Assembly: GCF_900089775.1 (NCBI RefSeq)
Contig: NZ_FLOB01000002.1
Span: 620,001-684,000 of the forward strand
Length of the DNA stretch: 64,000 nucleotides
DNA from: Marinomonas spartinae
Lineage (GTDB): Bacteria > Pseudomonadota > Gammaproteobacteria > Pseudomonadales > Marinomonadaceae
Direction of reading: 5' to 3'
The notes beneath the pieces were generated by a model that was not told the origin of the DNA, did not search any database, and saw nothing but the letters and a program-made list of their open reading frames with translations. Below are positions 3,118 through 56,712 of the stretch, one piece after another (within the stretch, counting starts at the first letter, position 1; every line of letters begins with the position of its first letter). Both the position numbers and the translations under genes were made by a program.

Positions 3118-3194
3118 GATGTGATCCTCTTAGTTAGGTTGGCTTCGGGCGGTTCCCGTAAGCACAGTTATACTATATCGTCGCGTTTGCGACG
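3118..3194 (-). promoter_or_regulatory. Early promoter with palindromic operator and structured 5' leader, copy B
   Basis: Nearly identical to copy A: inverted repeat CGTCGCGTTTGCGACG at 3179-3194, -10-like ATAGTATAAC, hairpin 3142-3163 (loop AACCG) and CTAACTAAGAGGA ahead of the ATG. Positions that differ from copy A fall in loops or outside the hairpin, which points to selection on the structure as well as the sequence. Confidence 0.65.
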
Positions 3195-34550: not shown

Positions 34551-34869
34551 CTTCTAGTAATCCTTTCCATAGATCATCCGATAGTTTTTTTTGTTCGTCA
34601 GCATGAGTTGGCTGTTTGTGCGGTAAAGATGTGTTGTTACCATCACTTTCAAGAACCGCTAAAACAGCATTCAACTTTTCTTTTGGAATCAGCATGATAT
34701 CGCTGTTTAGGCCCTTGGCAATCAGTTCAAGCGTATCGAGTCTTGGGTTGCCTTTTGCTTCAAGTCGTTGATATTGCTGTCTAGAAATACCAATACGCAT
34801 AGGCATGTCATTCTGCTTGAGTTTTAGTGCTAAACGACGATTTTTGATTTGCTGTAGTAGATTCATCAT
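34522..34869 (-). CDS. hipB: HipB-like antitoxin, copy 1
   Basis: 115-residue Cro/CI-type helix-turn-helix protein (LKQNDMPMRIGISRQQYQRLE) with a C-terminal acidic tail. It would repress its own operon and neutralise HipA. It ends inside the HipA start. The gene is preceded by AACTTAAGTG palindrome-like sequence. Confidence 0.88.
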   Translation of the reverse strand: MMNLLQQIKNRRLALKLKQNDMPMRIGISRQQYQRLEAKGNPRLDTLELIAKGLNSDIMLIPKEKLNAVLAVLESDGNNTSLPHKQPTHADEQKKLSDDLWKGLLEDGDEDDNGN

Positions 34870-35283: not shown

Positions 35284-35703
35284 ATGCCATCATTTGTTTT
35301 AAATAACATCAGCATATCAGCGAGAAAACACGGTTTCGTGTGTTTGTTGCTGTTTGTGCTATCGTTATTTTCGATGGCAATGGCAACGAACAGTATGATG
35401 TCGCCTTCCTCGAATATGATGTCTATGGAAGCGCATACCATGTCTGATTTATCAGTTCATCATATGTCTTCTGAAGAAGTTTCCTCTTGTGCCTCAACCT
35501 CGGCGGATGAATGTTCCAGTCTGACATCAGAGCATAATCATCAAAATTGTATGGACAATCATTGCAGTAACTTTTCAGCCTTACTGGTCAGTTACCATTC
35601 TTACTCTGACAAAATCACCTCTGTTCATACGGCTCTGTTGTCTGAATTTTACGTTTCTACCCATCCAAATACGCCTTACTTCCCCCCTATAGTCATTTCT
35701 TAA
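35284..35703 (+). CDS. Small Met/His/Cys-rich secreted protein of the copper cluster (139 aa)
   Basis: N-terminal hydrophobic signal (CLLLFVLSLFSMAMA), then a Met- and His-rich stretch (MMSPSSNMMSMEAHTM, HHMSSEEV) and a His/Cys cluster (HNHQNCMDNHC). The composition fits periplasmic copper binding. It ends YFPPIVIS, similar to the end of the protein at 43352 (YRPPILS), so the two are probably related. First gene of the cluster. Confidence 0.6.
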   Translation: MPSFVLNNISISARKHGFVCLLLFVLSLFSMAMATNSMMSPSSNMMSMEAHTMSDLSVHHMSSEEVSSCASTSADECSSLTSEHNHQNCMDNHCSNFSALLVSYHSYSDKITSVHTALLSEFYVSTHPNTPYFPPIVIS

Positions 35704-35773
35704 ATTCGCTGTTTCACTCATCGCTTTCATTCGCGTTGAGATTTTATGAATTTAAAAATGAGTAGTCGAGCCA

Positions 35774-37162
35774 ATGGCCAAACACAATTTTTTGGCATTC
35801 TGTCATGTATTACAGAGTGTCTATTGCCGTCGATTTTTAATCGGTAAAACGCATCGTATTGCCTCCGTTTTCCTATTGTCGTTACTGCCACTTGTTGCGA
35901 GCGCAGAAGTATTAAGCCTGCAACAAGCGGTGGAAAAAGCCGTCTCCCAAGATGATTGGTTGATTTCCAGCCAGCAAAAAGAAAATGCCATTCGTGCCTT
36001 AAGTCAAGGTATGACGGCGTTGCCGGATCCAAAAATCAATGTTGGTTTATTGAATATGCCAACCGACAGTTTTGATTTTAACCAAGAAGCGATGACGCAA
36101 TTTAGCGTGTCGGTATCGCAGATGTTTCCAGCTGGCGATACCTTACGTTTAACAGGAGAAAAGTACGCCGCACAAGGCGATCAAATGCCCTTGATGCGAG
36201 ATAATCGTCGCGCAATGCTGGCGATGGAAGTGTCAAATCTTTGGCTAACGGCCTACAGCTACGAAGAAAGTATCAAACTCGTTAAGCAAAATAGAACCTT
36301 GTTCGAACAACTTCACGAGGTAGTGGAAAGCAGTTATAGCTCGGCGTACGGGCGAGCCAAACAGCAAGATTTAGTGCGTTCTGAGCTGGAGTTGATTAAG
36401 TTAGATCATCGTCTAACACAGCTTCGCCAAGCGAAAGAAAATGCACTGAAAAAATTATCCCAATATATTCTTCCGGCCATGGCTGGTCAGAATAAAGCTG
36501 ATCAAGAAATCACTCTGAAAACAACGGGTGAACCCATTATGGTAACCCCGTCTAATAGCCGTTCGTCGCTTTCATCGAATTCATTGGCATTGGCGGCTCG
36601 TCTGAGCCAGCATCCGTTGGTTCGCATTGTCGATGTTCAATCCAATACCGCGCAGATAGATAAATCGATTGCCGAGCAAAAGTACAAACCAGAATGGGGC
36701 GTTACCTTGGGCTATGGGTATCGCGGTGATGACCTAAGTGGTAAAGATCGAGCCGATCTGGCGTCGATTGCGGTGAGTGTCAGCGTGCCAATCTTTTCAT
36801 CTAGTCGACAGGATGCTCAGGTGAAAGCTGCATCCTTACAAGTTGAGTCTTTTCTTTCTGAAAAGCAGCTGGTGCTGAATGAACTCATGGCGAAATACCG
36901 TGTTCTGACATCTGATATTACTCTGCTAGATCAACGAATCCGTCTTTATCAAACAAAGTTACTTCCTAGTTACAGAGAAAGCGCACAAGCCATGTTGAAT
37001 GCTTATACCAGCAATGATGGTGTTTTTTCGGATGTGGTTCAGGCGCGTATCGCGACATTGAATGCGCATATTGAATTGTTGAATATTCGCATTGAGCGTT
37101 TCAAGCGCTTGGCAGAATTGAATTATGTGATGGCACAAGGTGAAGAGGTGAAACTCAAATGA
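35774..37162 (+). CDS. cusC: CusC-like outer membrane efflux channel
   Basis: TolC-family outer-membrane protein that forms the exit duct of the tripartite copper/silver pump. 462 residues with an N-terminal signal (FLLSLLPLVASAE), two TolC-like repeats of long coiled-coil helices (for example LEQLHEVVESSYSSAYGRAKQQDLV and TLNAHIELLNIRIERFKRLAELNY, ends given only), separated by a beta region around 270-330. It overlaps the adaptor gene by four bases, so the three pump genes form one operon. Confidence 0.85.
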   Translation: MAKHNFLAFCHVLQSVYCRRFLIGKTHRIASVFLLSLLPLVASAEVLSLQQAVEKAVSQDDWLISSQQKENAIRALSQGMTALPDPKINVGLLNMPTDSFDFNQEAMTQFSVSVSQMFPAGDTLRLTGEKYAAQGDQMPLMRDNRRAMLAMEVSNLWLTAYSYEESIKLVKQNRTLFEQLHEVVESSYSSAYGRAKQQDLVRSELELIKLDHRLTQLRQAKENALKKLSQYILPAMAGQNKADQEITLKTTGEPIMVTPSNSRSSLSSNSLALAARLSQHPLVRIVDVQSNTAQIDKSIAEQKYKPEWGVTLGYGYRGDDLSGKDRADLASIAVSVSVPIFSSSRQDAQVKAASLQVESFLSEKQLVLNELMAKYRVLTSDITLLDQRIRLYQTKLLPSYRESAQAMLNAYTSNDGVFSDVVQARIATLNAHIELLNIRIERFKRLAELNYVMAQGEEVKLK

Positions 37163-38712
37163 AAGTAATCGGGTATATCGGCGTATTTGTACTAGGTGGC
37201 GTTCTTTCGGCTACGGGTTATCACTTTGGTCTTCAAGCATTTAATGCCATGAACGGGGAAATGAATGCTGGTGCATCAGTCACGAAAGGTGAAAAAGCGC
37301 CTTTATATTGGGTGGCGCCAATGGACCCAAATTACCGTCGTGACAAGCCGGGTCAATCTCCTATGGGAATGGATTTGATTCCTTTTTATGGCGATGATCA
37401 AGGTTCCAATAATCAGGGCGCTGGTACTGTGAGTATCTCGCCTGAAGTCGTTAATAACCTTGGCGTGCGAACAGGAAAAGTGTTTGAAGGCGTGCTGAAA
37501 CCAGACATTCGTACTGTGGGCTATTTGGCCTACAACGAAGACAAGATTGTTCATATTCATCCTCGTGTCGAAGGTTGGATCGAAAAGAGCTTTATTAAAT
37601 TCAATGGTGATTCAGTTGAAAAAGGTCAGCCTTTGTTCGATCTGTATTCACCAACCTTGGTGAATGCGCAGGAAGAATTTGTCTTTGCGTTAGCGCGCAA
37701 AGACCAGCGCATGATCAACGCGGGTGAAGAAAGGCTAAAAGCTCTGCAAGTGTCGAGCAGTTTTATCCAAGCGTTAAAGACAAAGCGCAAAGTGTCTCAA
37801 ACAGTGCGATTTTTTGCGCCACAAAGCGGCGTTATTGACAACCTTGGAATTCAAGATGGTTTCTACATTAAGCCAGGCACAACTTTGATGTCGATCGCGG
37901 ATTTGAGTGAGGTGTGGTTGGATGCTGAAGTGTTTGAACGACAAGCGCATCTTGTCGCGGTGGGTCAACCGGTTGAGGCTGTTATGGATTTCCTACCGGG
38001 GAAAACCTTTGCCAGTAACGTGGATTTTATTTATCCGACTCTAAATGCCAAAAACCGCACTTTGCGTGTTCGCATTCGTTTAGACAACCCTGAGCAACTT
38101 TTGAAGCCAGATATGTTTGCCCATGTTCGTATTGAAACCACGGAGCCAGGTAAAAAACGCTTGATACCAAAAGAAGCGCTAATTCGTGGCGGCGAGCAAA
38201 GCCGCGTGGTACTGGCATTGGGTGAAGGGCGTTATAAATCGATTGCAGTCGAAACCGGCGCGTTCGGTGATGACTACGTGGAAATTTTAGACGGCTTGGT
38301 GCTGGGTGATGAGGTCGTGACATCGGCGCAGTTTTTGTTGGACTCTGAATCCAGCAAAAGCTCGGATTTCAAACGCATGAATATAGACAGTGAGCAGACT
38401 TCAATGCCTGCCAGTGGCACTGAAATGGCTAACACGGCAATGTCTGGTAATGAAATGTCAGCAGCAGAACCTACCAACAATGTTTGGGTAGCTGCCCGTA
38501 TTAATCGTATCGATGCGACAACACGCAAGGTGAATGTGGACCACGATGCTATTGCTGATTGGAATTGGCCAAAAATGACGATGGACTTTGCACTAGCCGA
38601 TTGGTTAGAACTAGATGAATTACCGATTGGCAAAAATATTCAACTTGAGATTACGCGTGAAAGCAGCGTGAAGTTCATGGTCACTGACTATTTTGACGCT
38701 GACACTGAGTAG
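37159..38712 (+). CDS. cusB: CusB-like periplasmic adaptor with N-terminal metal-binding and C-terminal CusF-like domains
   Basis: 517-residue adaptor. Order: signal/TM (residues 1-25), heavy-metal-binding domain (YWVAPMDPNYRRDKPGQSPM), the barrel-sandwich and alpha-hairpin core (PRVEGWIEKSF, LYSPTLVNAQEEF), beta-barrel, and from ~430 a CusF-like domain (INRIDATTRKVNVDHDAI, WPKMTMDF with Trp and Met copper ligands). Fusion of CusF to CusB removes the need for a separate chaperone. None is seen as a free gene. Confidence 0.85.
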   Translation: MKVIGYIGVFVLGGVLSATGYHFGLQAFNAMNGEMNAGASVTKGEKAPLYWVAPMDPNYRRDKPGQSPMGMDLIPFYGDDQGSNNQGAGTVSISPEVVNNLGVRTGKVFEGVLKPDIRTVGYLAYNEDKIVHIHPRVEGWIEKSFIKFNGDSVEKGQPLFDLYSPTLVNAQEEFVFALARKDQRMINAGEERLKALQVSSSFIQALKTKRKVSQTVRFFAPQSGVIDNLGIQDGFYIKPGTTLMSIADLSEVWLDAEVFERQAHLVAVGQPVEAVMDFLPGKTFASNVDFIYPTLNAKNRTLRVRIRLDNPEQLLKPDMFAHVRIETTEPGKKRLIPKEALIRGGEQSRVVLALGEGRYKSIAVETGAFGDDYVEILDGLVLGDEVVTSAQFLLDSESSKSSDFKRMNIDSEQTSMPASGTEMANTAMSGNEMSAAEPTNNVWVAARINRIDATTRKVNVDHDAIADWNWPKMTMDFALADWLELDELPIGKNIQLEITRESSVKFMVTDYFDADTE

Positions 38713-38721
38713 GGGAATATC

Positions 38722-41700
38722 ATGATTGAAGCGATCATTCGTTGGTCCATAAACAACCGATTCATGGTGTTGTTGGCTACTTTTATTTTAGTGGGCGCTG
38801 GCTTGTATTCGTTAAAGAATACTCCCGTTGATGCCATTCCTGACTTGTCTGATGTGCAAGTTATCATTAAAACCAGCTATCCAGGACAAGCGCCACAAGT
38901 TGTGGAAGATCAAGTTACGTACCCGTTGACCACGGCGATGTTGTCTGTGCCCGGTGCTCAAACAGTGCGCGGTTATTCGTTCTTTGGGGATTCGTATGTC
39001 TACGTGATTTTTGATGAAGATACCGATATGTATTGGGCGAGAAGCCGAGTGTTGGAGTATTTAAGTCAGGTTGCGCCATCCTTGCCCAGTAACGCAAGGG
39101 CGCAATTGGGGCCAGACGCAACGGGCGTCGGCTGGGTGTATTTGTATGCCTTGGTGGATAAAACCGGTCAAAACGACTTGAGTCAATTGCGTTCACTGCA
39201 AGACTGGTTCTTGAAGTATGAATTACAAACCGTGCCTGGCGTATCGGAAGTGGCGCCCATTGGCGGCATGGTGAAGCAATATCAGGTAAGTGTGAATCCA
39301 GATAAATTGCGCGCGTTAAACATGCCATTGAGTCACATTCAAAATGCCATTAAACGCGGTAATCAGGAAGTCGGCGCGTCGGTCATTGAAATGGCAGAAG
39401 CTGAATACATGGTTCGAGCGTCTGGTTATATTCAGAGCGTCGAAGATATTGAAATGATTCCGCTTGGCGTCAGTGAAAGTGGCACACCGTTGACGATCAA
39501 AGATGTTGCAGACGTTGGTATTGGCCCACAAATGCGTCGAGGGTTAGCAGATCTCAATGGTGAAGGCGAAACTGTCGGCGGCGTGGTGGTGATGCGTTTT
39601 GGTGAAAACGCACAGAAAACCATCGAAGGCGTAAAAGCGAAATTGGAAACCTTGAAATCCAGCTTGCCAAAAGGCGTTGAGGTGGTGACGGTTTATGATC
39701 GTTCCGGTTTGATTGATCGTGCCGTGGAGAATTTATGGACCAAACTGCTGGAAGAGTTCCTTGTGGTTGCGTTGGTTTGTATGGTGTTTCTTTTTCATGT
39801 GCGTTCCTCTTTGGTGGCCATCATCAGTCTGCCTGTCGGTATTTTGACCGCCTTCATCGTCATGCATTTGCAGGGTATTAATGCCAATATCATGTCGCTT
39901 GGCGGTATTGCGATTGCCATTGGCGCCATGATTGATGGCGCAATCGTGATGATAGAAAATCTCCATAAGCATATGGAAAAAGTCGAAATGACCAAGGAAA
40001 ACCGTTGGCAGGTTGTGACCGCCGCGGCTACCGAAGTCGGCCCCGCGTTATTCTTTAGTCTGCTTATTATCACCGTCAGTTTCGTGCCTGTGTTTACCTT
40101 GGAATCCCAAGAAGGACGGATGTTTGGCCCGTTGGCCTATACCAAAACCTATGCCATGGCCGCATCGGCGGCATTAGCCATCACTCTGGTGCCTGTTTTG
40201 ATGGGGTACTTTGTGCGAGGTAAAGTCTTGCCTGAGCATAAAAACCCCGTTAATCGGGCTTTGATCGCGGTGTATATGCCGGCGTTAAAAGCCGTGTTGA
40301 GTTTTCCGAAAACCACCATTTTGGTGGCGATTGCTATATTTGCCATTGGTATGTGGCCGTTAAATAAGTTGGGAAGTGAGTTTATTCCTAACTTAGACGA
40401 AGGTGATTTGATGTATATGCCAACAGCGTATCCGGGGATCTCCATCGGACAAGCACGTCAGGTATTACAGCAAACCAATAAACTGATTGCGACCTTGCCA
40501 GAAGTGAAAACTGTCTTTGGGAAGGTTGGCCGTGCAGAAACCGCGACAGACCCAGCACCTTTGACGATGATCGAAACCTTTATTCAACTCAAGCCTCACT
40601 CTGAATGGCGAGACGGCATGACCAGCGACAAGATCAAGCAAGAGCTTGATCAGCTGGTCAAGATCCCTGGCATTACTAACGCTTGGGTAATGCCGATCAA
40701 AACACGAATCGACATGCTGGCAACGGGCATCAAAACCCCTGTGGGTATAAAGGTTGCAGGTCCTGATCTGAAAGTGATTCAAGATATTGGTTTGCAGCTA
40801 GAGAAAATCTTGAAACCAGTTGAAGGCACGGCATCGGTTTATTCTGAGCGTGTGGCCGGTGGTCGTTACGTCAATATAGACATTAATCGCGCGAAGGCAT
40901 CGCGTTATGGGTTGAACATTCAAGATGTTCAAGAGCTTATCTCTTCGGCGGTGGGTGGCATGAATGTCACTAATACTATTGAGGGGCTTGAGCGCTATCC
41001 CATTAATGTTCGCTATCCACAAGAATATCGTGATTCACCAGAGCAATTAGCCCTTTTGCCAATCGTGACTCCGAATGGTTTACGAATTGCTTTAGGGGAT
41101 ATTGCTGATGTTTATGTGGAAGAAGGTCCGCCAGGATTAAAAAGTGAAAACGCGCGTTTAAACGGTTGGACCTTTGTGGACATTGAAGGTGTAGATATTG
41201 GCCGTTATGTCGAAAACGCACAAAAAATCGTAGCAGACCAAGTGCAATTACCAGCAGGTTATTCATTAAATTGGTCTGGTCAATATGAGTATATGCAACG
41301 GGCAAAAGAAAAGCTGACCTATGTGGTTCCGCTCACATTGGCCATTATCATTGTCCTCTTGTATATCAACTTCCGTAACTTCTCCGAGGTGGCGATCATT
41401 ATGGGCACCTTGCCATTTGCTATGGTGGGTAGTATCTGGTTGATGTATTTATCTGGTTTCAACTTCTCGGTTGCAGTGGGGGTTGGCTTTATTGCGCTGG
41501 CTGGCGTGGCCGTGGAAATCGGCGTCATTATGCTGATGTATTTGAATCAAGCTTGGGCAGAGACACAAAAAAAATGCGCTGAAAAAGGCGTCTTACCTCG
41601 CGCGGACACGCTTTACCATGCGGTGCTTCATGGCTCTGGTATGCGAGTTCGTCCGGTGATGATGACGGCGGTATCCATCATTATCGGCTTGTTGCCAATT

Positions 41701-41841
41701 TTATATGGTACTGGAACGGGATCGGAGGTGATGAGTCGAATCGCTGCACCTATGGTTGGCGGTATGGTGAGCGCGGTCGTACTGACGTTATTAGTTTTGC
41801 CTGCGGTGTATTTTCTATGGAAAAAATCTTCATTGAAATGA
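38722..41841 (+). CDS. cusA: CusA-like Cu(I)/Ag(I) RND efflux pump
   Basis: 1039-residue heavy-metal RND proton antiporter, with twelve predicted membrane segments and two large periplasmic loops. Recognisable: [16 protein letters not shown], the TM4 region ([16 protein letters not shown]) with acidic proton-relay residues, and the copper-type [19 protein letters not shown] segment. Start ATG at 38722 follows GGGGAATATC ten bases after CusB. Together with CusC and CusB it exports copper out of the cell. Confidence 0.92.
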
Positions 41842-41971
41842 GTGTTTGTTTCAATCGATGTAAAACGCGGTTTTTCAGAGCCGCACAAAATGCTGGTACA
41901 GGTGGGCTCCTCTTTGTGCCAGTGCAAACCAATATTAAGCTCAAAGCAATTAAACTTTAAAGGATCATAGT

Positions 41972-42319
41972 ATGAACAAAATCAAATTAGCGCTTTCTGT
42001 ATTCGCAATGACAGCTGCTGTAAACGTATATGCACACGGCATGATGACAATGACATACCCCAAAGACGGTGCCATGCTAATGGCTCAAGCAGAACGAGTA
42101 GAGCTAAATTTCCAGAACCCTATGAAAGTTGTAAGTCTCAAGGTAGTAGGATCTAAAGGTAAGCCCGTGTCGGTTCGGTTTAATCGTGACGGTGCAACAA
42201 CGAAAAATTTTCAAACTATGTTACCAATGTTGGCGCCGGACAGTTATACAGTTCATTGGAAAGCAATGGGCGAAGATGGACACATGATGAAAGGCTCTTA
42301 TGGTTTTATGCAGCATTAA
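41972..42319 (+). CDS. copC: CopC-like periplasmic copper-binding protein
   Basis: 115 residues with a signal peptide ending at VYAHG, so the mature N-terminus is His, the copper ligand used by CopC-family proteins. The beta-sandwich pattern (YPKDGAMLMAQAERVELNF, ... YTVHWKAMGEDGHMMKGSYGF) includes the GHxxxGxxxF motif. It would carry Cu(II) in the periplasm for uptake by CopD. It precedes CopD by ~80 bp. Confidence 0.9.
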   Translation: MNKIKLALSVFAMTAAVNVYAHGMMTMTYPKDGAMLMAQAERVELNFQNPMKVVSLKVVGSKGKPVSVRFNRDGATTKNFQTMLPMLAPDSYTVHWKAMGEDGHMMKGSYGFMQH

Positions 42320-42400
42320 TTTGAACATTTAAACTGTTTAGTTCAACTGGCTAATTAGATTATATCTTTTAGGCTTTTCATTTTATAAAAAAGGGGCTGT

Positions 42401-43294
42401 ATGATGTTAACGAACTGGGAAATCGCGCAATTATTGACACGTTGGTTATTGTATTTTGGTATATCAAGCGTTGTAGGTGGGCTATTTGCATTTTGTTTGT
42501 TGCGTCATCAGTCTGCTTTATTGAGTAGTATAAAAAGGTACGTACGAGGAGGTGCGTTGATTGGTTTAGCGGCGACAATAGCTTATTTTTTTATCCTCGT
42601 TGGTGGGGCGATGGAGGAAGGTCTTTGGTCTATGTTTGATCCAGAGATGGTCTCTATCTATTGGGATTCGCCTGCGGGCAGTACCTTAATCGCTAATGTG
42701 ATTGGTTATTGCTTGGTGATCATAGCGTCATTTACCCTTGGGTCGGATCGTGCCTTCAGTCTGTGGCCATTTTCACGCCTTGCATTAATGGTCGCTTCCT
42801 TGGGCATAGCCAGTTTGATTTATTCGTTTTCATTCACGGGTCATGCGACAGAGCAAGCTTGGTATTATCAAATTATATTCTTTACTCATATCTTGATTGC
42901 TGCTTGGTGGTTAGGGTTGCTATTCCCTTTGTGGTTGGTTGCGCGAAAATCCACGCACCAGGAATCTAATCGAATCTTAGAGCGTTTTGGCGAACTTGCA
43001 GCGGTTGCTGTTTTGATTTTGATTATCTGTGGAGCATGGATGAGCTATGTTCTGACAGGATGGCAAGACTTATTCTCGTCAGACTATGGTTTCTGGTTGT
43101 TGGTGAAACTTGCTTTGGTCGTTGTTATTCTGGTGATGGCGGCATACCATAAATTACATCTTGTGCCGTTAATACTGAAACGCGGTAATACATTTCTTAT
43201 TCAAAAATCTATTTTAATGGAAAAAATGATCGCTTCTTCTATTTTGGTGGTCACGGCGATATTTACGACGTTTGTTGGTCCTCCAATGCATTAA
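42401..43294 (+). CDS. copD: CopD-like copper uptake membrane protein
   Basis: 297 residues with about eight hydrophobic segments. The His pattern FSFTGHATEQAW, IIFFTHILIAAWWLGLLFPLW and YHKLHLVPLIL is typical of CopD, which works with CopC in moving copper across the inner membrane. Start ATG at 42401, or 42404. Confidence 0.85.
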   Translation: MMLTNWEIAQLLTRWLLYFGISSVVGGLFAFCLLRHQSALLSSIKRYVRGGALIGLAATIAYFFILVGGAMEEGLWSMFDPEMVSIYWDSPAGSTLIANVIGYCLVIIASFTLGSDRAFSLWPFSRLALMVASLGIASLIYSFSFTGHATEQAWYYQIIFFTHILIAAWWLGLLFPLWLVARKSTHQESNRILERFGELAAVAVLILIICGAWMSYVLTGWQDLFSSDYGFWLLVKLALVVVILVMAAYHKLHLVPLILKRGNTFLIQKSILMEKMIASSILVVTAIFTTFVGPPMH

Positions 43295-43351
43295 TTAGAG
43301 GTGTATTTAAAGTGATGTTGTTTGGGGTGAAAGTTGATTGGGGGAAGAATA

Positions 43352-43747
43352 ATGAGACAAAATAAAATCGTTATCATTATATTTGTTTTGCTCGTGTTTG
43401 TTAGCCAGATAATGACTTCTGTGGCTGGTCCAATGGCATATCACTCAATGCAACTTACTGCTACTGCTACTTATGGCTCGATGGTCGATCATAAGGCTTC
43501 GTTGCACAACGCGTCTGTTGAAACACACACAGATCAGTATGTTCAAATATTGCCGGTCACGAATGCGTTAGATTGTTGCAAAGACAAAAGCTCGTGTCCG
43601 ATGAGCGTTTGCATGTCGATGGCCGCGATCATTGATCGTCAGTGGATTTATTACGGCTCTCAACTGAGTCAGAGTAGTGCTCATCTAGTTCAACAAGAGC
43701 TACCGTTGAATAGCTCTTCTTTATATCGCCCTCCGATACTTTCTTAA
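43352..43747 (+). CDS. Small Cys/Met-rich secreted protein of the copper cluster (131 aa)
   Basis: N-terminal hydrophobic segment (IVIIIFVLLVFVSQIM), then Met-rich sequence and a Cys cluster (CCKDKSSCPMSVCMSMAA). It ends YRPPILS. It resembles the first gene of the cluster in layout and C-terminus and probably binds copper in the periplasm. The ATG at 43352 has GGGGGAAG upstream. Confidence 0.6.
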   Translation: MRQNKIVIIIFVLLVFVSQIMTSVAGPMAYHSMQLTATATYGSMVDHKASLHNASVETHTDQYVQILPVTNALDCCKDKSSCPMSVCMSMAAIIDRQWIYYGSQLSQSSAHLVQQELPLNSSSLYRPPILS

Positions 43748-43878
43748 TCTTTGGATGAATCCGTCGTTTTGTCGGACGCTCCAAGGCCACTAACCGTTAT
43801 TTTCTATTATTAACCTTTTATCCACTACAGGGATAATGCCTGTATTGGATCTTCTCAAGAACATTGTTGGAGACAATT

Positions 43879-43962
43879 ATGTCTTTTATTCATTACATTA
43901 TTTGGTTGCACCTGCAAACAGGTGTTGTGGGTTTAATTAGATTAAGGGAGTTCAGTTTATGA
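43879..43962 (+). CDS. 27-aa leader peptide overlapping copA
   Basis: ATG to TGA frame with a good GGAGACAA ribosome site; its stop overlaps the copA start by ATGA. The peptide is hydrophobic at first (MSFIHYIIWLHLQTG). It may couple translation of copA or be a short membrane peptide. No similar peptide is known to me. Confidence 0.4.
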   Translation: MSFIHYIIWLHLQTGVVGLIRLREFSL

Positions 43963-46046
43963 CAGTATTCAAACCTTCACACGAAGAGCAGAACAAATCA
44001 TCGAGCGGTACAGTGCTTAGCCGTCGTCAGTTTGTATTTGGTGCTTCTGCCATGCTGGCTTTAACTACCATTCCGTTTTCAAAAAATGCACTAGCAAGTG
44101 CCATTGGCCAATCTTTAACTCAGTTATCTGGGAAAGTTTTTGATTTAAGCATTGATTATAAAACCGTTAATTTTACGGGAACGCCTGCTAGAGCAACGGT
44201 CATTAATCAACTGTTTCCCGGACCCTTGTTACGCTGGAAAGAAGGTGAAACGGTCACGCTAAGAGTAAAAAACAATCTTGATCATGACAGCTCTTTGCAC
44301 TGGCATGGGATGATTTTACCGACAGAAATGGATGGCGTTCCTGGCCTTAGTTTTGCGGGCATCAAACCGGGAGAAACATTCGAATATAAATTTCCAGTTA
44401 AGCAAAGTGGTACCTATTGGTATCACAGTCATTCAGGTTTTCAAGAACAAACGGGAGTGTATGGCGCGATTGTTATAGACCCTAAAGAAGCAGACCCTGT
44501 TGTGTTTGATCGGGAGCATGTCATCATGCTGTCGGACTGGTCGGATGAGGCGCCTGAAACGATATATGCGAATTTAAAGAAGCAATCAGACTATTACAAT
44601 TACAGTGAAAGAACGATGTCTGATTTGTTTTCTGATATCAAAAAACAAGGGTTGGTGAACACATGGAGAGCACGCTCCATGTGGAATCAGGAACGTATGA
44701 GTGACCGAGATATTTCTGATGTCACGGGCGCCACCTATACGTATTTAATGAATGGGAACCCACCGGCACAACCTTGGCAAGCACTCTTTAAACAAGGAGA
44801 AAAAGTTCGTCTTCGCTTTATTAATAGCTCTGCGATGACGATATTTGATGTGCGAATTCCAGGTTTAAAAATGACCGTGGTAGCGAGTGATGGACAAAAT
44901 GTTCAGCCTGTTACCATCGATGAATTTCGAATTGGTGTTGCGGAAACTTACGATGTGATAGTCGAGCCGAAGATGGAGGATGCTTATTGTATTTTCGTTC
45001 AGAGCATTGACCGTTCTGGTTATACCGTTGGTAACTTCACGTCAGATGAAATGTTCACGGCCAAAATCCCTGATATGGACCCTATGCCGATCTTAGGGCA
45101 TGGCGATATGGGCATGAATATGGAGGGCATGGACCACAGTAAAATGGCGATGGGTTCGGACTCTATGTCGGGCATGGAAGGCATGGACCACAGTAAAATG
45201 GCGATGGGTTCGGACTCTATGTCGGGCATGGAAGGCATGGACCACAGTAAAATGGCAATGGGTTCAGACTCTATGTCGGGCATGGAAGGCATGGACCACA
45301 GCAAAATGGCAATGGGCTCAGGCTCAATGGCTGGCATGGAAGGCATGGATCACAGCAAAATGGCAATGGGTTCAGGCTCAATGGCTGGCATGGAAGGCAT
45401 GGATCACAGCAAAATGGCAATGGGTTCAGGCTCAATGACTGGCATGGAAGGGATGGATCTCAGTCAGCCAAGTATGGTTATGCCTACTTTAGGTTTAGCA
45501 GGTTACGGCAGTGACAATGAGATTAAGCATCTAGATTCAGAAAATGGTCCTCAAGTAGACATGCAATCAGGCATGCCTCAAAGCGGCCTTAACGACCCAG
45601 GTATTGGCTTAAGGGATCATCAAGCGAACTATAACCGTAAAGTACTGACCTACGCAGACCTAAAAGGCTTGCATCCTACTCATGATAAACGTCAACCCAC
45701 TCGAGAAATCCAGCTGCATCTAACGGGCAATATGAATCGTTATATGTGGTCAATTAATGGAATCAATTTTGCTGATTCCGCTCCACTTGAATTGGCGTAT
45801 AACGAAAGAGTGCGAATTACCTTGGTGAACGACACCATGATGATTCATCCCATGCATCTACATGGTGTATGGAGCGAGTTAGAAACAGGAGACCCTGATT
45901 ACATTCCACGTAAGCATACTGTGATGGTTCAGCCTGGTTCAAAAATCAGCTATTTAGTCACCGCAGACGCCTTGGGGCAATGGGCATATCACTGCCATTT
46001 GCTATATCACATGCCTGGCATGTTTAGAAAAGTGGTCATCAAATAA
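43959..46046 (+). CDS. copA: CopA-like multicopper oxidase with MxxMxHxxM repeats
   Basis: 695 residues. Tat signal SRRQFVFGASAMLALTTI. Copper-binding motifs of a laccase-type oxidase: LHWHGM, YWYHSHSGFQEQTG, HPMHLHGVW and YHCHLLYHMPGM (type 1 and trinuclear sites all present). Between ~385 and ~495 lies a Met/Asp/His-rich repeat block. It oxidises Cu(I) in the periplasm and sequesters copper. Followed by copB after 12 bases. Confidence 0.93.
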   Translation: MTVFKPSHEEQNKSSSGTVLSRRQFVFGASAMLALTTIPFSKNALASAIGQSLTQLSGKVFDLSIDYKTVNFTGTPARATVINQLFPGPLLRWKEGETVTLRVKNNLDHDSSLHWHGMILPTEMDGVPGLSFAGIKPGETFEYKFPVKQSGTYWYHSHSGFQEQTGVYGAIVIDPKEADPVVFDREHVIMLSDWSDEAPETIYANLKKQSDYYNYSERTMSDLFSDIKKQGLVNTWRARSMWNQERMSDRDISDVTGATYTYLMNGNPPAQPWQALFKQGEKVRLRFINSSAMTIFDVRIPGLKMTVVASDGQNVQPVTIDEFRIGVAETYDVIVEPKMEDAYCIFVQSIDRSGYTVGNFTSDEMFTAKIPDMDPMPILGHGDMGMNMEGMDHSKMAMGSDSMSGMEGMDHSKMAMGSDSMSGMEGMDHSKMAMGSDSMSGMEGMDHSKMAMGSGSMAGMEGMDHSKMAMGSGSMAGMEGMDHSKMAMGSGSMTGMEGMDLSQPSMVMPTLGLAGYGSDNEIKHLDSENGPQVDMQSGMPQSGLNDPGIGLRDHQANYNRKVLTYADLKGLHPTHDKRQPTREIQLHLTGNMNRYMWSINGINFADSAPLELAYNERVRITLVNDTMMIHPMHLHGVWSELETGDPDYIPRKHTVMVQPGSKISYLVTADALGQWAYHCHLLYHMPGMFRKVVIK
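45120..45443 (+). repeat. Six 54-bp repeats in copA encoding Met/His-rich 18-mers
   Basis: Six copies of an 18-residue step MEGMDHSKMAMGSxSMxG; three have DSMSG, two GSMAG and one GSMTG. A degenerate seventh follows (MEGMDLSQ). Each copy offers Met and His copper ligands. The two subtypes show stepwise expansion. Confidence 0.93.
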
Positions 46047-46058
46047 GGAGAGTAATAA

Positions 46059-46772
46059 ATGAAAAACTTTAATTCACTAGGCTTTACATTAGTGATGGCA
46101 ACGGCTTCTGTTATGAGCTCTTTGTCTTATGCAGGTGCGGAAGATGACCCTTTATTAAGTTATGTCGCCATCGACCAATTAGAAAAAGGCCTTGAGTCAG
46201 ACGATCCAATCAGCTTTAGTTTTCAAGCATGGGTTGGTTATGATATGGATAAAATCTGGCTTAAAACGTCAAGTGAATACCAGAATAGTGACGACCAGGG
46301 CCTAGAAGTACAGGCTCTATACAGTCATGCCGTAGCGCCGTATTGGGATATGCAGATGGGCGTAAGGCGAGATATTAAACCGTCCCCATCTCGTGATTGG
46401 TTGGTGCTTGGTTTCCAAGGTTTGGCTCCGTATTTTTTCGACATTGACGGTGCTTTCTTTGTTGGAGAAAAAGGGCAAACCTCCATTCGTTTAAGCATCG
46501 AACAGGAATGGTTAATCACTCAAAAACTGATATTAACGCCTGAATTTGAAATGAACGCCTATGGTAAGAGTGATGACGAGTTAAGCATGGGTGCTGGTCT
46601 TACTGATATCAATGCAGGCCTTCGACTAAAGTATGAAATAACACGTAAGTTTGCACCTTATATAGGTATAGACTGGAGTAAAAAGCTCGGTGCTACGGCT
46701 GATCTTGCTCGTGATAATGGAGATAGCATTAGCAACTCTCAGTTTGTCATTGGCGTAACGGCTTGGTTTTAA
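46059..46772 (+). CDS. copB: CopB-like outer membrane copper resistance protein
   Basis: 237 residues, signal peptide (ending SLSYAG), then a beta-barrel of alternating strands and a C-terminal aromatic end (VIGVTAWF). The family is usually longer because of an N-terminal Met-rich region, which this protein lacks; the repeats are in CopA instead. It probably binds or exports copper at the outer membrane. Confidence 0.85.
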   Translation: MKNFNSLGFTLVMATASVMSSLSYAGAEDDPLLSYVAIDQLEKGLESDDPISFSFQAWVGYDMDKIWLKTSSEYQNSDDQGLEVQALYSHAVAPYWDMQMGVRRDIKPSPSRDWLVLGFQGLAPYFFDIDGAFFVGEKGQTSIRLSIEQEWLITQKLILTPEFEMNAYGKSDDELSMGAGLTDINAGLRLKYEITRKFAPYIGIDWSKKLGATADLARDNGDSISNSQFVIGVTAWF

Positions 46773-46871
46773 TTTTTTTACAAGAAGTAAAAGGGATGTC
46801 AGTGAGATGAAAGATAAAAGTCTCACTAACATCACCATTAATTTCTACGATATAAAAGAAAGGACAATACC

Positions 46872-47099
46872 ATGATGAACGAAAGTATGTTTGGTAGCAC
46901 AATGTGGGCAGGACACTGGTTATGGATGTTAGTGATTGCGACCTTAGTCGTTATACCTGTCTATAGAATATGCAAGCGAGCTGGATATTCTGGCTGGCTG
47001 GGACTGCTGATACTGGTCCCAATGGTCAATCTGATTTTGTTGTATTTCATTGCTTTTTCTGACTGGCCCGCGAGTAAAAAAGGAGCACAGGATGAGTGA
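46872..47099 (+). CDS. Small membrane protein between copB and the copper ATPase (75 aa)
   Basis: Two hydrophobic segments ([18 protein letters not shown] and [21 protein letters not shown]) joined by CKRAGYSGW. The end overlaps the ATPase start by eight bases. A small membrane protein of this kind often accompanies copper ATPases, but its role is unknown. Confidence 0.55.
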
Positions 47100-49440
47100 G
47101 CATTCGAATCATCATGAACATAAAAGCCACGGTGTACATGACCCTGTGTGCAAAATGTCAGTGGATCCCCAAACTGCAGATTATAGCAGTCAGCATGCCG
47201 GAAAAACTTGGTATTTCTGTTCTTCCGGTTGTCAGTCGAAGTTCGATAATAATCCAGAAAAGTATCTCAGTGAAGAAAATGAGCAGACAGAGTCGGTTGC
47301 ATCCGGAACCATGTTTACCTGTCCTATGCATCCAGAAATTCGTCAACAAGGCCCGGGTGAATGCCCAATTTGTGGCATGTCGCTTGAACCTGAGGCGGTA
47401 AGCCTCGACGACGGCCCTTCCGAAGAACTTGCTTACATGACTCGTCGATTCTGGATTGGTTTGGCCCTTGCTCTTCCGGTTTTTTTGATCGAAATGGGAG
47501 GTCATCTTTTTAATATTGACCACATTGTGTCGCCACAAACATCCAACTGGATTCAGTTAGTTTTAGCGACGCCAGTGGTCGTTTGGTGTGGTCTTCCATT
47601 CTTTGTACGTGGTTGGAAATCAGTACTCAGTCGCAATCTTAATATGTTCACACTTATTGCCATCGGTACGGGCGTCTCTCTGTTGTACAGTCTTGTCGCG
47701 ACCTTGGCTCCGCAGATATTTCCTGACGCTTTTCACGCGGACGATGGCTCGGTCGCAGTGTACTTCGAGGCGTCCGCTGTCATTGTTGTACTAGTGTTGC
47801 TGGGACAGGTACTTGAACTCCAAGCTCGAGAAAAAACCTCTGGGGCTATCAAAGCCCTATTAGATCTGGCTCCAGCCACGGCAAGAAAACTGGACGATGA
47901 TGGTAGTGAGTCTGATGTGTCGCTCGATCAAATAAAGGTTGGTGATCGATTGCGAGTTCGGCCAGGCGATAAGGTGCCTCTAGATGGCGAAGTGCTTGAG
48001 GGTAGTTCCAACGTTGATGAATCCATGGTCACTGGTGAACCCTTGGCTATTACTAAGAAAACTGGAGATCAGGTAATTGGTGGTAGCATAAATCAGCAAG
48101 GCAGTTTTATTTTACGAGCCGACAAAGTCGGACGAGACACAATGCTATCTCAGATCGTCCAGATGGTCGCCAGTGCGCAGCGAAGTCGTGCGCCTATTCA
48201 GGGAATGGCTGACAAAATGGCTGGTTGGTTCGTCCCAGTTGTTCTGCTGGTCTCTATCATTGCGTTCGGGGTCTGGTCTATCGTCGGTCCAACGCCGCCC
48301 ATGGCCTTTGGTCTGATTGCCGCTGTGAGTGTGCTGATTATTGCATGTCCCTGTGCGCTTGGTCTGGCGACGCCTATGTCTATCATGGTCGGTGTCGGTC
48401 GTGGTGCTCAGGTTGGTGTCTTGATACGAGATGCCGAGGCGTTAGAGCGGATGGAGAAAGTAGACACAGTGGTAGTGGATAAAACCGGGACTTTAACAGA
48501 GGGTAAACCTCAGGTGACAAAGCTGGTCTCGGCAAATGGTTTCAGCGATGAGGACTTGATGCGTTATTCCGGTAGCCTTGAAAAGGGCAGCGAGCACCCT
48601 TTGGCACATGCTATTTTGGATAAAGCTAAAACAATGAACCTAACATTACCAGACGCCATAGATTTCGACTCTCCAAACGGCAAAGGCGTTACTGGTGAAG
48701 TCGATGGAAAAAGGGTTCTGCTTGGTAATCGATTGTTAATGCAGTCAGAAAATGTTGATACATCCGCCTTTGAGGAAGAAGCCAATCAACTTCGAGAGGA
48801 CGGTGCAACAGTAATTTTTGCCGCAGTTGATGGAAAGGTTTGTGGTTTGCTGGCGATTGCAGACCCGATCAAGGACACCACTAAAGCGGCAATAGCCGCT
48901 CTGCAGAATGAAGGGATTCGTGTGGTTATGCTGACCGGAGATAATCGTACCTCTGCCGAAGCTGTAGCTCGAAAACTCCACATTGATGAAGTGAAGGCAG
49001 AAGTATTGCCGGAAGATAAAGGCAATGTTATTCAACAGCTTAAAAATGAGGGTCGTGTTGTTGTTATGGCTGGTGATGGTGTTAATGATGCGCCAGCCTT
49101 GGCAACCGCAGATGTAGGTATTGCCATGGGGACAGGAACCGACGTGGCTATCGAAAGTGCGGGTATTACTCTATTACGTGGCGATCTGATGGGCATCGTG
49201 GAGGCACGGCGATTATCCCTGGCAACCATGCGTAATATTCGACAGAACCTGTTCTTTGCATTCATTTATAACATGGCAGGAGTACCGATTGCTGCAGGAG
49301 TACTTTATCCGTTTACAGGTATTCTCTTATCGCCTATTTTTGCCGCTGTAGCTATGTCGCTCTCCTCGGTGAGTGTCATACTAAATGCTTTAAGGTTGCG
49401 TGCGGTAAAATTATCAGATAGCCAAATTAATAGTAAATAG
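47092..49440 (+). CDS. copA2: P1B-type copper-exporting ATPase with YHS and metal-binding N-terminus
   Basis: 782 residues. The N-terminus has a His-rich start, a YHS domain ([11 protein letters not shown] ... [11 protein letters not shown]) and a heavy-metal-binding domain ([20 protein letters not shown]). The core shows [10 protein letters not shown] in the membrane, [11 protein letters not shown] (phosphorylated Asp), an HP locus (GSEHPLAH), and [10 protein letters not shown]. It exports Cu(I) from cytoplasm to periplasm. ATG at 47092 with AAAGGAGCAC. A TTG at 47050 would add 14 residues inside the upstream gene. Confidence 0.93.
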
Positions 49441-49463
49441 CTAATTTTGAAAGAGGTGAATAT

Positions 49464-49907
49464 ATGAAGGTAATAAATAAAAGCATTGCAGCTTCAATCT
49501 TAACGTTAGTAAGTGCTAGCGTGTTTGCACAACCTATAATAGATCTCTACAAGTCTCCGACATGTGGTTGTTGTGTTAAATGGGGTGAGCTAATGGAGGC
49601 AGAGGGGTATACCGTTAATTATCATCACACAGAAGACTGGTCCTCTTTAAAGAAAGATGCGGGTATGCCCATGCAACTACAGTCGTGTCACACCGCTGTT
49701 ATCGACGGTTACTTAATTGAAGGGCATGTGCCAGAACAAGATGTGGCACGTTTAATACTTGAGAAACCTGAAAATGTATCAGGGTTGGCTGTGCCTGGAA
49801 TGCCAAGGTATTCTCCTGGCATGGCTGCAAAAGGTCAGCAATACAAAGATTTTAATGTGATTCAGTTTAGCCAAAAAGGAACGATGACAGTTTATCAACA
49901 ATATTGA
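49464..49907 (+). CDS. DUF411 metal-binding protein (CopG-like)
   Basis: 147 residues, signal peptide (ends VFAQP), then LYKSPTCGCCVKWGELM with the CxCC copper site, and MQLQSCHTAVIDGYLIEGH. DUF411 proteins are periplasmic and act in copper resistance. Last gene of the cluster. Confidence 0.88.
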   Translation: MKVINKSIAASILTLVSASVFAQPIIDLYKSPTCGCCVKWGELMEAEGYTVNYHHTEDWSSLKKDAGMPMQLQSCHTAVIDGYLIEGHVPEQDVARLILEKPENVSGLAVPGMPRYSPGMAAKGQQYKDFNVIQFSQKGTMTVYQQY

Positions 49908-50123: not shown

Positions 50124-51389
50124 TTAAACTCGAAAATCTTTATGAAGTTTCTGCCAATGCGCTTTTAGCTGTTGTTTGTGCTCTTCATTCATCGGTAGGT
50201 TTTTTAAAGCCTCAGGCCAAAGGCTTCTCGCTTTTTTCATCACATCATCCAGATGCGGTTTGATCGCTCGCCATGGAATATCTGATTTAGTAGCCCAATG
50301 TTCAAAGTGCTTATATGAGACATCGTACCAAGCTTTTGTCTTAGCTAGATTAAGGGCAAAGTGTTGCTCGCTTTTAATATAAACACTGGTGGTGACTATG
50401 TCGTAAGCGGGGGAAAGTCTGGGTGTGACTTGATCTGTATACAGTAAGCTCCAGTTTTTCAAATGGGCGTCGCCGTTTGCTAATAGGATGTTGGTGAGTA
50501 TACGACGAGCAAGTTGCTGGACATCACTTAAACCATTACCAGAAAACTGATACAGGATTTTTGCTATTTGTTCGTAGTTGCCAGAACTGTATTTTTCATG
50601 TGGGTACTTCACAAGAACTTGAGCAAAGTCTTCCATGTGAATGCGTTGGTCGTCACGCCGATCAAACCGTTTTATGGCGAAAGCTAATTTTTCATCCGGA
50701 AGGTTGATTTGAGGAAGGTTGTCTAATTGGTCTATCTCGACCAATTTTATTTCAGGAATATCCACGCCAATGAGAGAAGCGAGAGTCATGGCAGTAAACT
50801 CATTGGCGGGCACTTCTTTGTGTTTAGTGGAGGGTGTTTTCACAATCCAATCGCCAAGCACATTGTCTTTCGACAAATTATATCGACCGTCTTTTTCCGT
50901 CATGGAAAACTTCATTTGAACACCAGCCAAGGAAAACTTGTTCTCTTGGCTTAGTTTGTCGAATTTAACCGCTTTTAGTTGGCCATGAGATGAGAATAAA
51001 TGTAGAGGAACATCTTCAGGCTCCATCGGTTCAGCGACTAATGCGCCCGGTAAATCCATGCCCAGATAAGACAAAATATGAAACTCATTATCAACATGGG
51101 TTTTGAGTCCTTGAGCGATCAGCTCTCGCAAAGAACCTTCAGGCAATAGATTAGACAAAATAGGGTGCAAGCGTTGGTTGGTCGCCCATGGCTCTGATAG
51201 CATTTTATCAGCACGCGGAAAATTTTGATGGGTGGTTAAGCTAAAAGTGGGGCGCGCTATATTAGATTGAAAGCTTTCAGCAAAATGAAGAATATTACGT
51301 CCATTTTTTGCCCCTGCCAAATACCCCACTAGATGGCCATGTAATGTCAACTTAAGAACACTAATTTCCGTTGTCATCTTCGTCCCCAT
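50124..51389 (-). CDS. hipA: HipA-family kinase toxin, copy 2
   Basis: 421 residues, same domain order and all catalytic motifs as copy 1 (GDAHLKNWSL, SPAYDI). Differences cluster in the C-terminal third (for example KYSSGNYEQ against KYNSGNYEQ, and a different C-terminal tail) and in one residue near the start. Both copies look functional. Having the same antitoxin specificity, one HipB could neutralise both. Confidence 0.9.
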   Translation of the reverse strand: MGTKMTTEISVLKLTLHGHLVGYLAGAKNGRNILHFAESFQSNIARPTFSLTTHQNFPRADKMLSEPWATNQRLHPILSNLLPEGSLRELIAQGLKTHVDNEFHILSYLGMDLPGALVAEPMEPEDVPLHLFSSHGQLKAVKFDKLSQENKFSLAGVQMKFSMTEKDGRYNLSKDNVLGDWIVKTPSTKHKEVPANEFTAMTLASLIGVDIPEIKLVEIDQLDNLPQINLPDEKLAFAIKRFDRRDDQRIHMEDFAQVLVKYPHEKYSSGNYEQIAKILYQFSGNGLSDVQQLARRILTNILLANGDAHLKNWSLLYTDQVTPRLSPAYDIVTTSVYIKSEQHFALNLAKTKAWYDVSYKHFEHWATKSDIPWRAIKPHLDDVMKKARSLWPEALKNLPMNEEHKQQLKAHWQKLHKDFRV

Positions 51390-51708
51390 CTTCTAGTAAT
51401 CCTTTCCATAGATCATCCGATAGTTTTTTTTGTTCATCAGAATGATCAGGCTGTTTGTGCGGTAAAGATGTGTTGTCACCATCGCTTTCAAGAACCGCTA
51501 AAACAGCATTCAGCTTTTCTTTTGGAATCAGCATGACGTCGCTATTGAGACCCTTGGCAATCAGTTCAAGCGTATCGAGTCTTGGATTGCCTTTTGCTTC
51601 AAGCCGTTGGTACTGCTGCCTAGAAATGCCAACACGCATTAGCATGTCATTCTGCTTGAGTTTCAGTGCTAAACGGCGATGTTTGATTTGCTGTAGTAGG
51701 TTTATCAT
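51361..51708 (-). CDS. hipB: HipB-like antitoxin, copy 2
   Basis: 115 residues beginning MINLLQQIKHRRLALKLKQN, with the same helix-turn-helix as copy 1 and a C-terminal tail with a few changes (KQPDHSDEQ against KQPTHADEQ). A longer frame from 51747 would add 13 residues before the conserved start. I prefer 51708. Confidence 0.88.
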   Translation of the reverse strand: MINLLQQIKHRRLALKLKQNDMLMRVGISRQQYQRLEAKGNPRLDTLELIAKGLNSDVMLIPKEKLNAVLAVLESDGDNTSLPHKQPDHSDEQKKLSDDLWKGLLEDGDEDDNGN

Positions 51709-51798
51709 AAGGAAACTAATAAGTTGTTTTTTAATATATAGAAACATATTAGTTGCTATTTTTATTTAAGGCAACTTAAGAGTTTCTTTTTTCGGCGT

Positions 51799-53752: not shown

Positions 53753-54003
53753 GTTTTTCTTTTTCCATATATTTTCCTTAAATTTTCCAAACGCTTCCAT
53801 TTTTTCTCTATGTTTTCAGTATTTTTGGCTGAATTAGCGTGTCTGTAAATTCATCGAAATTACTGTCATTTTCGTTCAGTCATAAAAAAGAGCGGCTAGT
53901 TCTCTTCTTCGTCGATGAGTTTAGCTAGTCCGCCTCATTTTTGGTCAAAAAATCGGAAATCCTTCTTCTTACACAAATTCACTTGGTGATTGCCTGTGCT
54001 TAA

Positions 54004-54114
54004 ATCTATATTGTATATATATGCAGTATTTTAGCGTTTGGTAAGCAAGTAAAGGCGAAGGTCGACAAGTGGACGGGTATTACGGTGGGCGTGGGAATTA
54101 CGCCTTGGTTTTAA
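54004..54114 (+). pseudogene. C-terminal gene remnant before the CRISPR leader
   Basis: A 36-codon open piece without a start, ending in GVGITPWF and a stop. It could be the end of an outer-membrane protein. It is followed by a strong hairpin (AATGCCAAGCCC / GGGCTTGGCATT). The remnant has no identifiable partner. Confidence 0.3.
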
Positions 54115-54244
54115 CCCTTTTTTCTCGACCTAATGCCAAGCCCTTATAAATAGGGGCTTGGCATTTCCTGTTTAAAAAAGGGTATTTTTGCTAAAAATAC
54201 ACAAAGCTCTTTAACAATCAAATAGTTAATGCCAATTTTGTCTA
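54115..54244 (+). promoter_or_regulatory. CRISPR leader
   Basis: AT-rich, about 130 bp, directly before the first repeat. It includes the palindrome AATGCCAAGCCC-...-GGGCTTGGCATT, which may end upstream transcription, and then the AT-rich end with TTTAACAATC. The first repeats are perfect and the last one is mutated at the far end, which places the leader on this side. Confidence 0.7.
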
Positions 54245-55473
54245 CTTCACCGCCGAACAGGCGGCTTAGAAAGCTGAGAATGGTAAGAAGTTCTAGAAAT
54301 AAAACTTCACCGCCGAACAGGCGGCTTAGAAAATCACAACCTTGTATCTTATTCCGAAGTATTTCTTCACCGCCGAACAGGCGGCTTAGAAATTGTAGAT
54401 GTCATGTATAGTGTTCCCTTGTATCTTCACCGCCGAACAGGCGGCTTAGAAATTGCTTGGCACCCATTCTCAAAATAAATTGATCTTCACCGCCGAACAG
54501 GCGGCTTAGAAATAATGGGTCAGGTCCATCATCATATATTTCAACTTCACCGCCGAACAGGCGGCTTAGAAAGACAAAATTGAACCTCATTTCTCCCCAG
54601 CGAACTTCACCGCCGAACAGGCGGCTTAGAAAAATCTGGCGGAGCTTAGTTTTTTTCTCTGTCCCTTCACCGCCGAACAGGCGGCTTAGAAAAGAGTTGT
54701 TCGCAGGTATCAGACTGTCGAATGCTTCACCGCCGAACAGGCGGCTTAGAAAGATGATGTACAGGTTTTTGACGTTGTTTTGCGCTTCACCGCCGAACAG
54801 GCGGCTTAGAAACAACAAGCCACGAGACCGCCGTGTCTTGCGAGCTTCACCGCCGAACAGGCGGCTTAGAAAATAGTAAACGGTATTGATAACCTAGAAA
54901 TCAGCTTCACCGCCGAACAGGCGGCTTAGAAAGCGATGGGCACCTGTTGTTTTTAGCAAGACGCCTTCACCGCCGAACAGGCGGCTTAGAAAGCGATGGG
55001 CACCTGTTGTTTTTAGCAAGACGCCTTCACCGCCGAACAGGCGGCTTAGAAAAAGACGCTCTTGAAAAACTTAAATCAAAAGGCCTTCACCGCCGAACAG
55101 GCGGCTTAGAAAAGAGTGGGATAGGGATGCCAACTGGCATGCATCTTCACCGCCGAACAGGCGGCTTAGAAACAAACGAGATTTACCACGGCGTGATCGG
55201 TGTATCTTCACCGCCGAACAGGCGGCTTAGAAACTGCCGCTTTACATTGTTCGGATGGGGTCATTCTTCACCGCCGAACAGGCGGCTTAGAAAAGACAGC
55301 TTTGAAGTGTTTGCCACCCAAAAGGCTTCACCGCCGAACAGGCGGCTTAGAAACGGCACTGGATTTTGCCTGTGCACAGTAATGGCTTCACCGCCGAACA
55401 GGCGGCTTAGAAACGGCACTGGATTTTGCCTGTGCACAGTAATGGCTTCACCGCCGAACAGGCGGCCTAGAAA
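54245..55473 (+). CRISPR. Type I-F-like CRISPR array, 21 repeats, 20 spacers
   Basis: 28-bp repeat beginning CTTCACCGCCGAACAGG and ending GGCTTAGAAA, which folds with stem CCGCC/GGCGG and loop GAACA. Spacers are 32 bp, except spacer 16, which is 33. Only the last repeat (55446) differs, with C for T in GGCTTAG. Spacers 12 and 13 are identical, as are 19 and 20, so 18 are different. Repeat and spacer lengths are those of type I-F. No cas gene is in the window. Confidence 0.97.
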
Positions 55474-56489: not shown

Positions 56490-56712
56490 TGAATACTTGG
56501 GGTCAAATGAAATATTCTCTTTGGCCCCTCTCAGATCCCGCCTCATTTCTGGTCGAAAAATCGGAAATTCGGCTATTTCACATAGCTTGTTACTCCTCAG
56601 ATCTGAGGAGTCAGTTAAAATATTTCGTAAAAATCGGATGGTGCAGCTGCTATCATGTTATGAATCGAGTATATTCGAGCAGCATAGTAGTATTAACGAA
56701 AAAGGAATTGTT

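Follow-up and report, generated by a model that had tools for sequence, protein, structure and literature searches.

CRISPR array and its match to the prophage

The stretch of DNA analysed here (64,000 nt of a Marinomonas spartinae contig; hereafter the window) carries a prophage and a CRISPR array. In particular, the array (positions 54245–55473, plus strand) comprises 21 I-F-like repeats and 20 spacers, with spacers 12 and 13 identical to each other and spacers 19 and 20 identical to each other, and is preceded by a leader (54102–54244, plus strand), while prophage gene J (22864–27681, plus strand) encodes a 1605-aa protein of the Phage_Tail_Tip family (PF09327). Spacer 10 (54813–54844, plus strand) has its best match in the window in gene J, at 30 of 32 positions (26636–26667, plus strand). 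The mismatches are at position 8 (C in the spacer, T in the prophage) and position 22 (T in the spacer, C in the prophage), and the flanking 5′ dinucleotide (26634–26635) is TC, not CC: the outer PAM base (−2) is changed, and the base adjoining the protospacer is still C. These features, reported by an earlier reading of the DNA from its letters alone (the sequence-only reading), were reproduced exactly. Chance matches at this level or better are expected at 3e-11 for spacer 10 against the window and at approximately 2e-7 for the 84 distinct spacers against the 4.7-Mb genome, excluding coincidence, and within three mismatches the whole genome contains only the spacer itself and the J protospacer.

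We observed no follow-up immunity against the prophage among the other 83 distinct spacers, which reach at most 23/32 in the window and three other stretches of the same genome, and at most 22/32 in the stretch containing the left end of the prophage. An exact spacer scan of viral contigs returned no match, nor did a comparison of the window array with a phage collection. Four spacers of a second array (cis22, cis23, cis25, and cis38; see below) all match one phage region, in several relatives, the pattern one would expect from primed adaptation, a process described for type I-F (PMC4117759, available portion). Spacers 19 and 20 (55354–55445) match many genomes of the genus at up to 28/32, some of them with several copies. 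A 31-bp repeat (94% identical) lies on either side of the window array, at 53930–53960 and 56538–56568.

Resident type I-F system and leader lineage

The sequence-only reading depends on cas genes somewhere in the genome, and a complete I-F operon is present. The genome encodes one such operon, comprising cas1, cas2-3, and csy1–4 and associated with 28-nt repeats (locus L012, 4313–12877, on contig C20), a gene set and repeat length that place it in type I-F; csy3 and cas1 were called over their cut-offs, and cas2-3, csy1, csy2, and csy4 by similarity to other loci and by position. The whole genome yields one csy3 match and one cas1 match, both away from the window array. The array in cis to the operon has 50 repeats and lies approximately 332 kb before the start of the window, and contig C17 carries a third. 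The expectation of a CC PAM, also part of the sequence-only reading, holds for this genome: CC stands 5′ of 22 of 25 other protospacer places matched at 26/32 or better (10 spacers, 29 loci, spacer 10 left out; the window array contributes through spacer 19 only), and of 27 of 33 at 25/32 or better, as is typical of type I-F.

The window array has a leader that does not match the resident cas operon. Specifically, it is 77–84% identical to the leaders of five loci (G013, G019, G026, G030, and G032) from a different I-F cas lineage within the genus, 61–62% identical to those of two further loci of that lineage (G011 and G021), 65% identical to the leader on contig C17, and 46% identical to the resident leader. 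The Cas proteins of these seven other-lineage loci are 27–59% identical to the resident Cas proteins, and the cas1 and csy3 of that lineage are absent from the genome.

On its leader side, the resident cis array (L012:13008–15978) has 34 repeats of a newer type, two of them with one change, differing from the window repeats at 5 of 28 positions; these are followed by one hybrid repeat, and the remainder consists of 14 window-type repeats (13 unaltered, one singly changed) plus a hybrid at the far end. The repeat type switches at the hybrid repeat at C20:287049, as if two arrays had been joined by recombination inside a repeat, and genome G015 has a similar chimeric cis array. The resident operon is itself a mosaic, with cas1 90–93% and csy4 63–67% identical to those of G015, G038, and G039, and with cas2-3 and csy1–3 26–50% identical to those of any of the 12 other loci with a homologue (csy1 in 9 of the 12). 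G015 and G039 form a like mosaic with each other (cas1 96%, csy4 93%, cas2-3 42%).

Alleles of gene J and the protospacer differences

Among 48 Marinomonas genomes, the J segment that contains the protospacer was found in 5, the present one included. Three alleles, those of another M. spartinae genome, M. shanghaiensis, and G042, combine CC with the same position-8 base (C) as the spacer, at protospacer identities of 26/32, 27/32, and 25/32, respectively; the M. piezotolerans allele has TC and T at position 8 (23/32). Counting the resident allele, CC occurs with codon AGC in three of the five, and TC with AGT in two. As judged from these alleles, a targetable relative of the prophage is real, because three of the four other Marinomonas J alleles have CC and the spacer's position-8 base. 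A scan of both strands of locus L056 gives a protospacer at 26/32 with CC. The sequence-only reading proposed to seek perfect-match relatives with CC; in the sequences searched, relatives with CC reach 25–27/32, and none at 32/32 was found.

The codon overlapping the TC dinucleotide is AAT, where AAC, also Asn, would give CC; the codon at position 8 is AGT versus AGC, both Ser and hence synonymous; and the codon at position 22 is GCG (Ala) in the prophage versus GTG (Val) in the spacer. All five alleles read SHETA at the target. The sequence-only reading invoked a protein under host-recognition selection; the targeted part of J is conserved and does not lie in a variable host-recognition segment.

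The protospacer is located in a mosaic block of gene J (26398–27200, plus strand) that is 88.8% identical to M. spartinae, versus 99.6% for 25450–26397. For other allele pairs, identity also falls in the block, by approximately 3 to 10 points (for example from 75.3 to 67.4% for M. shanghaiensis), and for the M. shanghaiensis/G042 pair it rises by 2 points; because the block is more variable in other allele pairs too, recombination need not account for the whole loss of identity to M. spartinae. The protospacer and PAM contain 7 differences to M. spartinae in 34 bases, and the densest patch elsewhere contains 15. Since the site is not the densest patch and 51.1% of shuffled genes hold some 34-base window as dense, ordinary divergence would explain the protospacer differences without selection. 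Relative to the spacer, with a CC donor assumed, differences fall at 2 of 9 critical positions and 1 of 25 others (p = 0.16; three differences, giving little power).

By analogy with characterised I-F systems, the TC protospacer is probably functionally poor, because E. coli I-F needs G at target-strand position 2 or 3 (PMC3506596, in the portion available) and the three target-strand bases here are G-A-T. The Csy complex needs two G–C pairs (PMC4344526, likewise). The natural cases in the available portions of PMC5576922 and PMC3630108 concern the other PAM base than the one changed here, and the seed tests there concern positions 3 and 6, not 8. A close parallel for a tolerated self-target is spacer 6 of CRISPR2 in P. 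atrosepticum (PMC3630108, available text), an I-F spacer that likewise matches integrated DNA, next to a PAM altered at one base, and is not toxic; there the match is 100%, the change is at −1, and the active cas operon is of the same system, whereas here there are two mismatches, the change is at −2, and the leader is of another lineage. Type III-B rescue of the kind seen in M. mediterranea was considered and rejected: Cmr2 was not found in the genome, and the crRNA of spacer 10 could not pair with J mRNA because the spacer has its sense.

A comparison of gene J with the phage collection gave no match by DNA and six records at 31–36% identity by protein for the J segment. Beside gene J lies a diversity-generating retroelement, recognised by a reverse transcriptase ORF (29575–30822; RVT_1, E = 4.8e-20) and by template and variable repeats (29048–29160 and 29582–29694) that differ at 11 of 113 positions, 11 of 11 at template adenines.

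Aca2 homologue and candidate anti-CRISPR cassette

The prophage also encodes a homologue of the anti-CRISPR-associated regulator Aca2 and has two Aca2-type promoters before small ORFs, features absent from the sequence-only reading. The Aca2 homologue (1285–1773, minus strand) belongs to the Aca2 family by sequence (PF08965, E = 2.7e-26; a solved Aca2 chain, E = 1.5e-20; YdiL, E = 6.2e-10) and matches three records of the phage collection, two of them phage ZF40, whose Aca2 is the best match (41.7% identity). All further elements are on the minus strand. Promoter 1 (3172–3200) has the elements TTTACA and TATAGT, with the inverted repeat CGTCGC-AAAC-GCGACG (3179–3194) between them, and lies upstream of ORF-A (2749–3117; 122 aa), a candidate anti-CRISPR gene; ORF-B (1776–2666; 296 aa) is a candidate anti-CRISPR or anti-defence gene. 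Promoter 2 (1006–1034) has TTTAAA, the same inverted repeat (1013–1028), and TATAGT, and lies upstream of ORF-D (690–950; 86 aa). At both promoters the inverted repeat thus sits within the core promoter, in the same place as in the acrIF8-aca2 operon of Pectobacterium phage ZF40 (JQ177065; PMC8434428, available portion), and in both phages the cassette is located between lysis genes and the integrase. The cassettes differ in that the cargo here, in the phage searches, did not resemble the ZF40 record and comprises three ORFs behind two promoters.

Stem-loops are predicted in the 5′UTRs of ORF-A (3142–3163), ORF-B (2691–2711), and ORF-D (976–997), and a GCTTACGG...CCGAAGC pattern occurs before these three ORFs, three times in the window and in none of 100 shuffles. 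Aca2 reportedly binds RNA stem-loops as well. Folding energies of the isolated 53-nt UTRs have z = −2.35 and −3.34, and those of 81- and 91-nt stretches z = −1.12 and −0.93. Over five stem-loops, 81.6% of pairs are formed, a value reached in 57 of 500 shuffles and hence not significant, in a count in which one written pair is formed by no row and the alignment displaced two of the shorter rows; we therefore make no claim of covariation. The pattern was rejected as a predictor of Aca2: it matched at least 120 stretches of viral contigs, and among the 80 loci listed the only one with an Aca2 homologue in the DNA covered is the prophage's own record.

A search of 390 genomes of the order revealed a relative of ORF-A in 1 of the 389 others (50% identity, with a longer C-terminus), in a genome of another family, where it adjoins an Aca2 homologue, directly upstream, and revealed no relative of ORF-B in the 389. 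The G042 prophage has an Aca2 homologue at 75% identity and the same operators, without ORF-A or ORF-B; other ORFs occupy both places (169 and 69 aa), the shorter fitting an uncharacterised phage family (phrog_27479). In a small comparison of five genomes, both prophages from csy3-bearing hosts carry Aca2, and the stretches examined from the three prophages of hosts lacking csy3 yielded none (chance 0.1).

Comparison of ORF-A, ORF-B, and ORF-D with PDB sequences, Pfam, NCBIfam, PHROGs, and phage records matched no known Acr in the libraries searched (in most of which, as in the Aca2 and order-wide comparisons above, the window's minus-strand proteins were queried without the first residue; NCBIfam was also searched with full proteins). 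Foldseek with the ORF-A model (pLDDT 73) returned nothing at E ≤ 0.001, and the ORF-B model was unusable (pLDDT 36). The Aca2 homologue, its operators, and the cargo ORFs are regarded as a candidate Aca2-regulated anti-CRISPR cassette, a putative rival or additional reason for the coexistence of prophage and spacer. No title on Marinomonas anti-CRISPRs, or on Aca2 together with I-F self-targeting, covering the locus was found in a literature search that covered few subscription journals.

Origin and tolerance of the self-match

We consider it somewhat likelier than even, at roughly 60%, that four elements account for the locus jointly: archived memory of a relative, an array with a foreign leader, ordinary divergence of gene J, and a probable Aca2-regulated anti-CRISPR cassette. 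On this account, spacer 10 would preserve an old record of a phage that was a close relative of the resident prophage, with a J allele differing from the resident one at 2 of 32 positions, stored in an array whose leader belongs to an I-F cas lineage now missing from the genome. The prophage is most likely left uncut through its outer PAM base T and a mismatch at the seed edge, by extension from published I-F work, and the differences would be put down most simply to allele divergence and recombination in gene J, not to selected escape from this host. The cassette would independently allow coexistence with the resident, different I-F effector. The sequences themselves show the match, the cas operon, the foreign leader, the CC sister alleles, the J mosaic, and the Aca2 homologue with its operators; the silence of spacer 10, the function of the cassette, and the order of events are inferred. 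The donor-allele phage was not found in the sequences searched, and it counts against the archive account that two of the three differences fall on critical positions.

That same placement, at PAM −2 and seed position 8, favours the escape that the sequence-only reading proposed, in which an ancestor of the prophage was a target of spacer 10 and selection then favoured the changes in PAM and seed. Relatives with CC do exist, and I-F PAM escape is documented in the genus: in M. mediterranea MMB-1, phages CPG1g and CB5A are near matches to spacers of I-F array CRISPR04 with altered PAMs, and a relative with an intact PAM exists, as here (PMC5576922, available portion). There, however, the pre-escape phage was isolated, experiments demonstrated the escape, the PAM is altered at −1, and type III-B helps. 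The present case involves a prophage as target and a PAM altered at −2, in a genome in which Cmr2 was not found. A single change would have been enough for escape, yet three are present, one of them PAM-distal; the two at critical positions are silent third-codon states, AAT and AGT, also present in M. piezotolerans; and the mosaic block, the non-significant enrichment at critical positions (CC donor assumed), a protospacer less dense in differences than the densest patch, and the lack of a pre-escape or perfect-match phage among the sequences searched argue in the same direction. Of the proposal, what stands is that spacer 10 records a close relative of J and that CC sister alleles exist; the designation as an escape variant is not supported, and we regard selected escape as unlikely. 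A mismatched self-target is easily taken for an escape mutant; in this genome, divergence among J alleles, together with an orphaned array and the candidate cassette, explains the trace at least as well.

Two accounts of tolerance can be set beside the effect of the PAM. The match could be without effect because the window array is not expressed or its transcript is not processed by the resident Cas proteins, as would fit a leader from a lineage that has left neither its cas1 nor its csy3 in the genome, and newer resident repeats unlike those of the window. The resident cis array, however, still holds 15 window-type or terminal-hybrid repeats, and in G038 the window's repeat occurs alongside a csy4 that shares 63% identity with its resident counterpart, so the resident Csy4 may still process the window repeat; in a survey, arrays sharing a repeat acquire spacers alike whatever their distance from cas (PMC12814883, available portion). 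We hold a fully silent array to be doubtful. Alternatively, at least one of ORF-A, ORF-B, and ORF-D could inhibit the resident I-F system, so that spacer 10 would be tolerated even if it binds. Kinship to ZF40 Aca2, a ZF40-like repeat between −35 and −10 at both promoters, the ORF-A relative directly upstream of Aca2 in another family's genome, the conserved Aca2 and operators with exchanged cargo in G042, and the co-occurrence with csy3 all favour inhibition. Set against it are cargo ORFs that match no Acr, an ORF-A model without a fold match, an unusable ORF-B model, the five-genome size of the csy3 comparison, and the general finding that only 3% of Aca2-like proteins (35 of 1223) adjoin a known acr (PMC9410906, available portion). 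Inhibition of this kind is a real possibility, though short of even odds.

A more specific form of the idea is offered tentatively, with less confidence still: ORF-A, ORF-B, and ORF-D would be new anti-CRISPR families in a cassette with two promoters, on which Aca2 acts both through DNA operators and through 5′UTR stem-loops, and which neutralises a resident I-F system with exchanged cas2-3 and csy1–3 and a kept cas1, csy4, and leader, and the self-target would be a footprint of that conflict. The mismatched self-target is real, partly explained, and ordinary; the candidate cassette is the more interesting part of the locus. If active, it would add to the known anti-CRISPR candidates and offer a naturally occurring example of an I-F operon with an exchanged effector.

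Before the array, two HipA-type gene pairs (33285–34869 and 50124–51747), whose HipA genes are alike at 405 of 422 codons, flank an island (35284–49907) that by eye looks like metal resistance.
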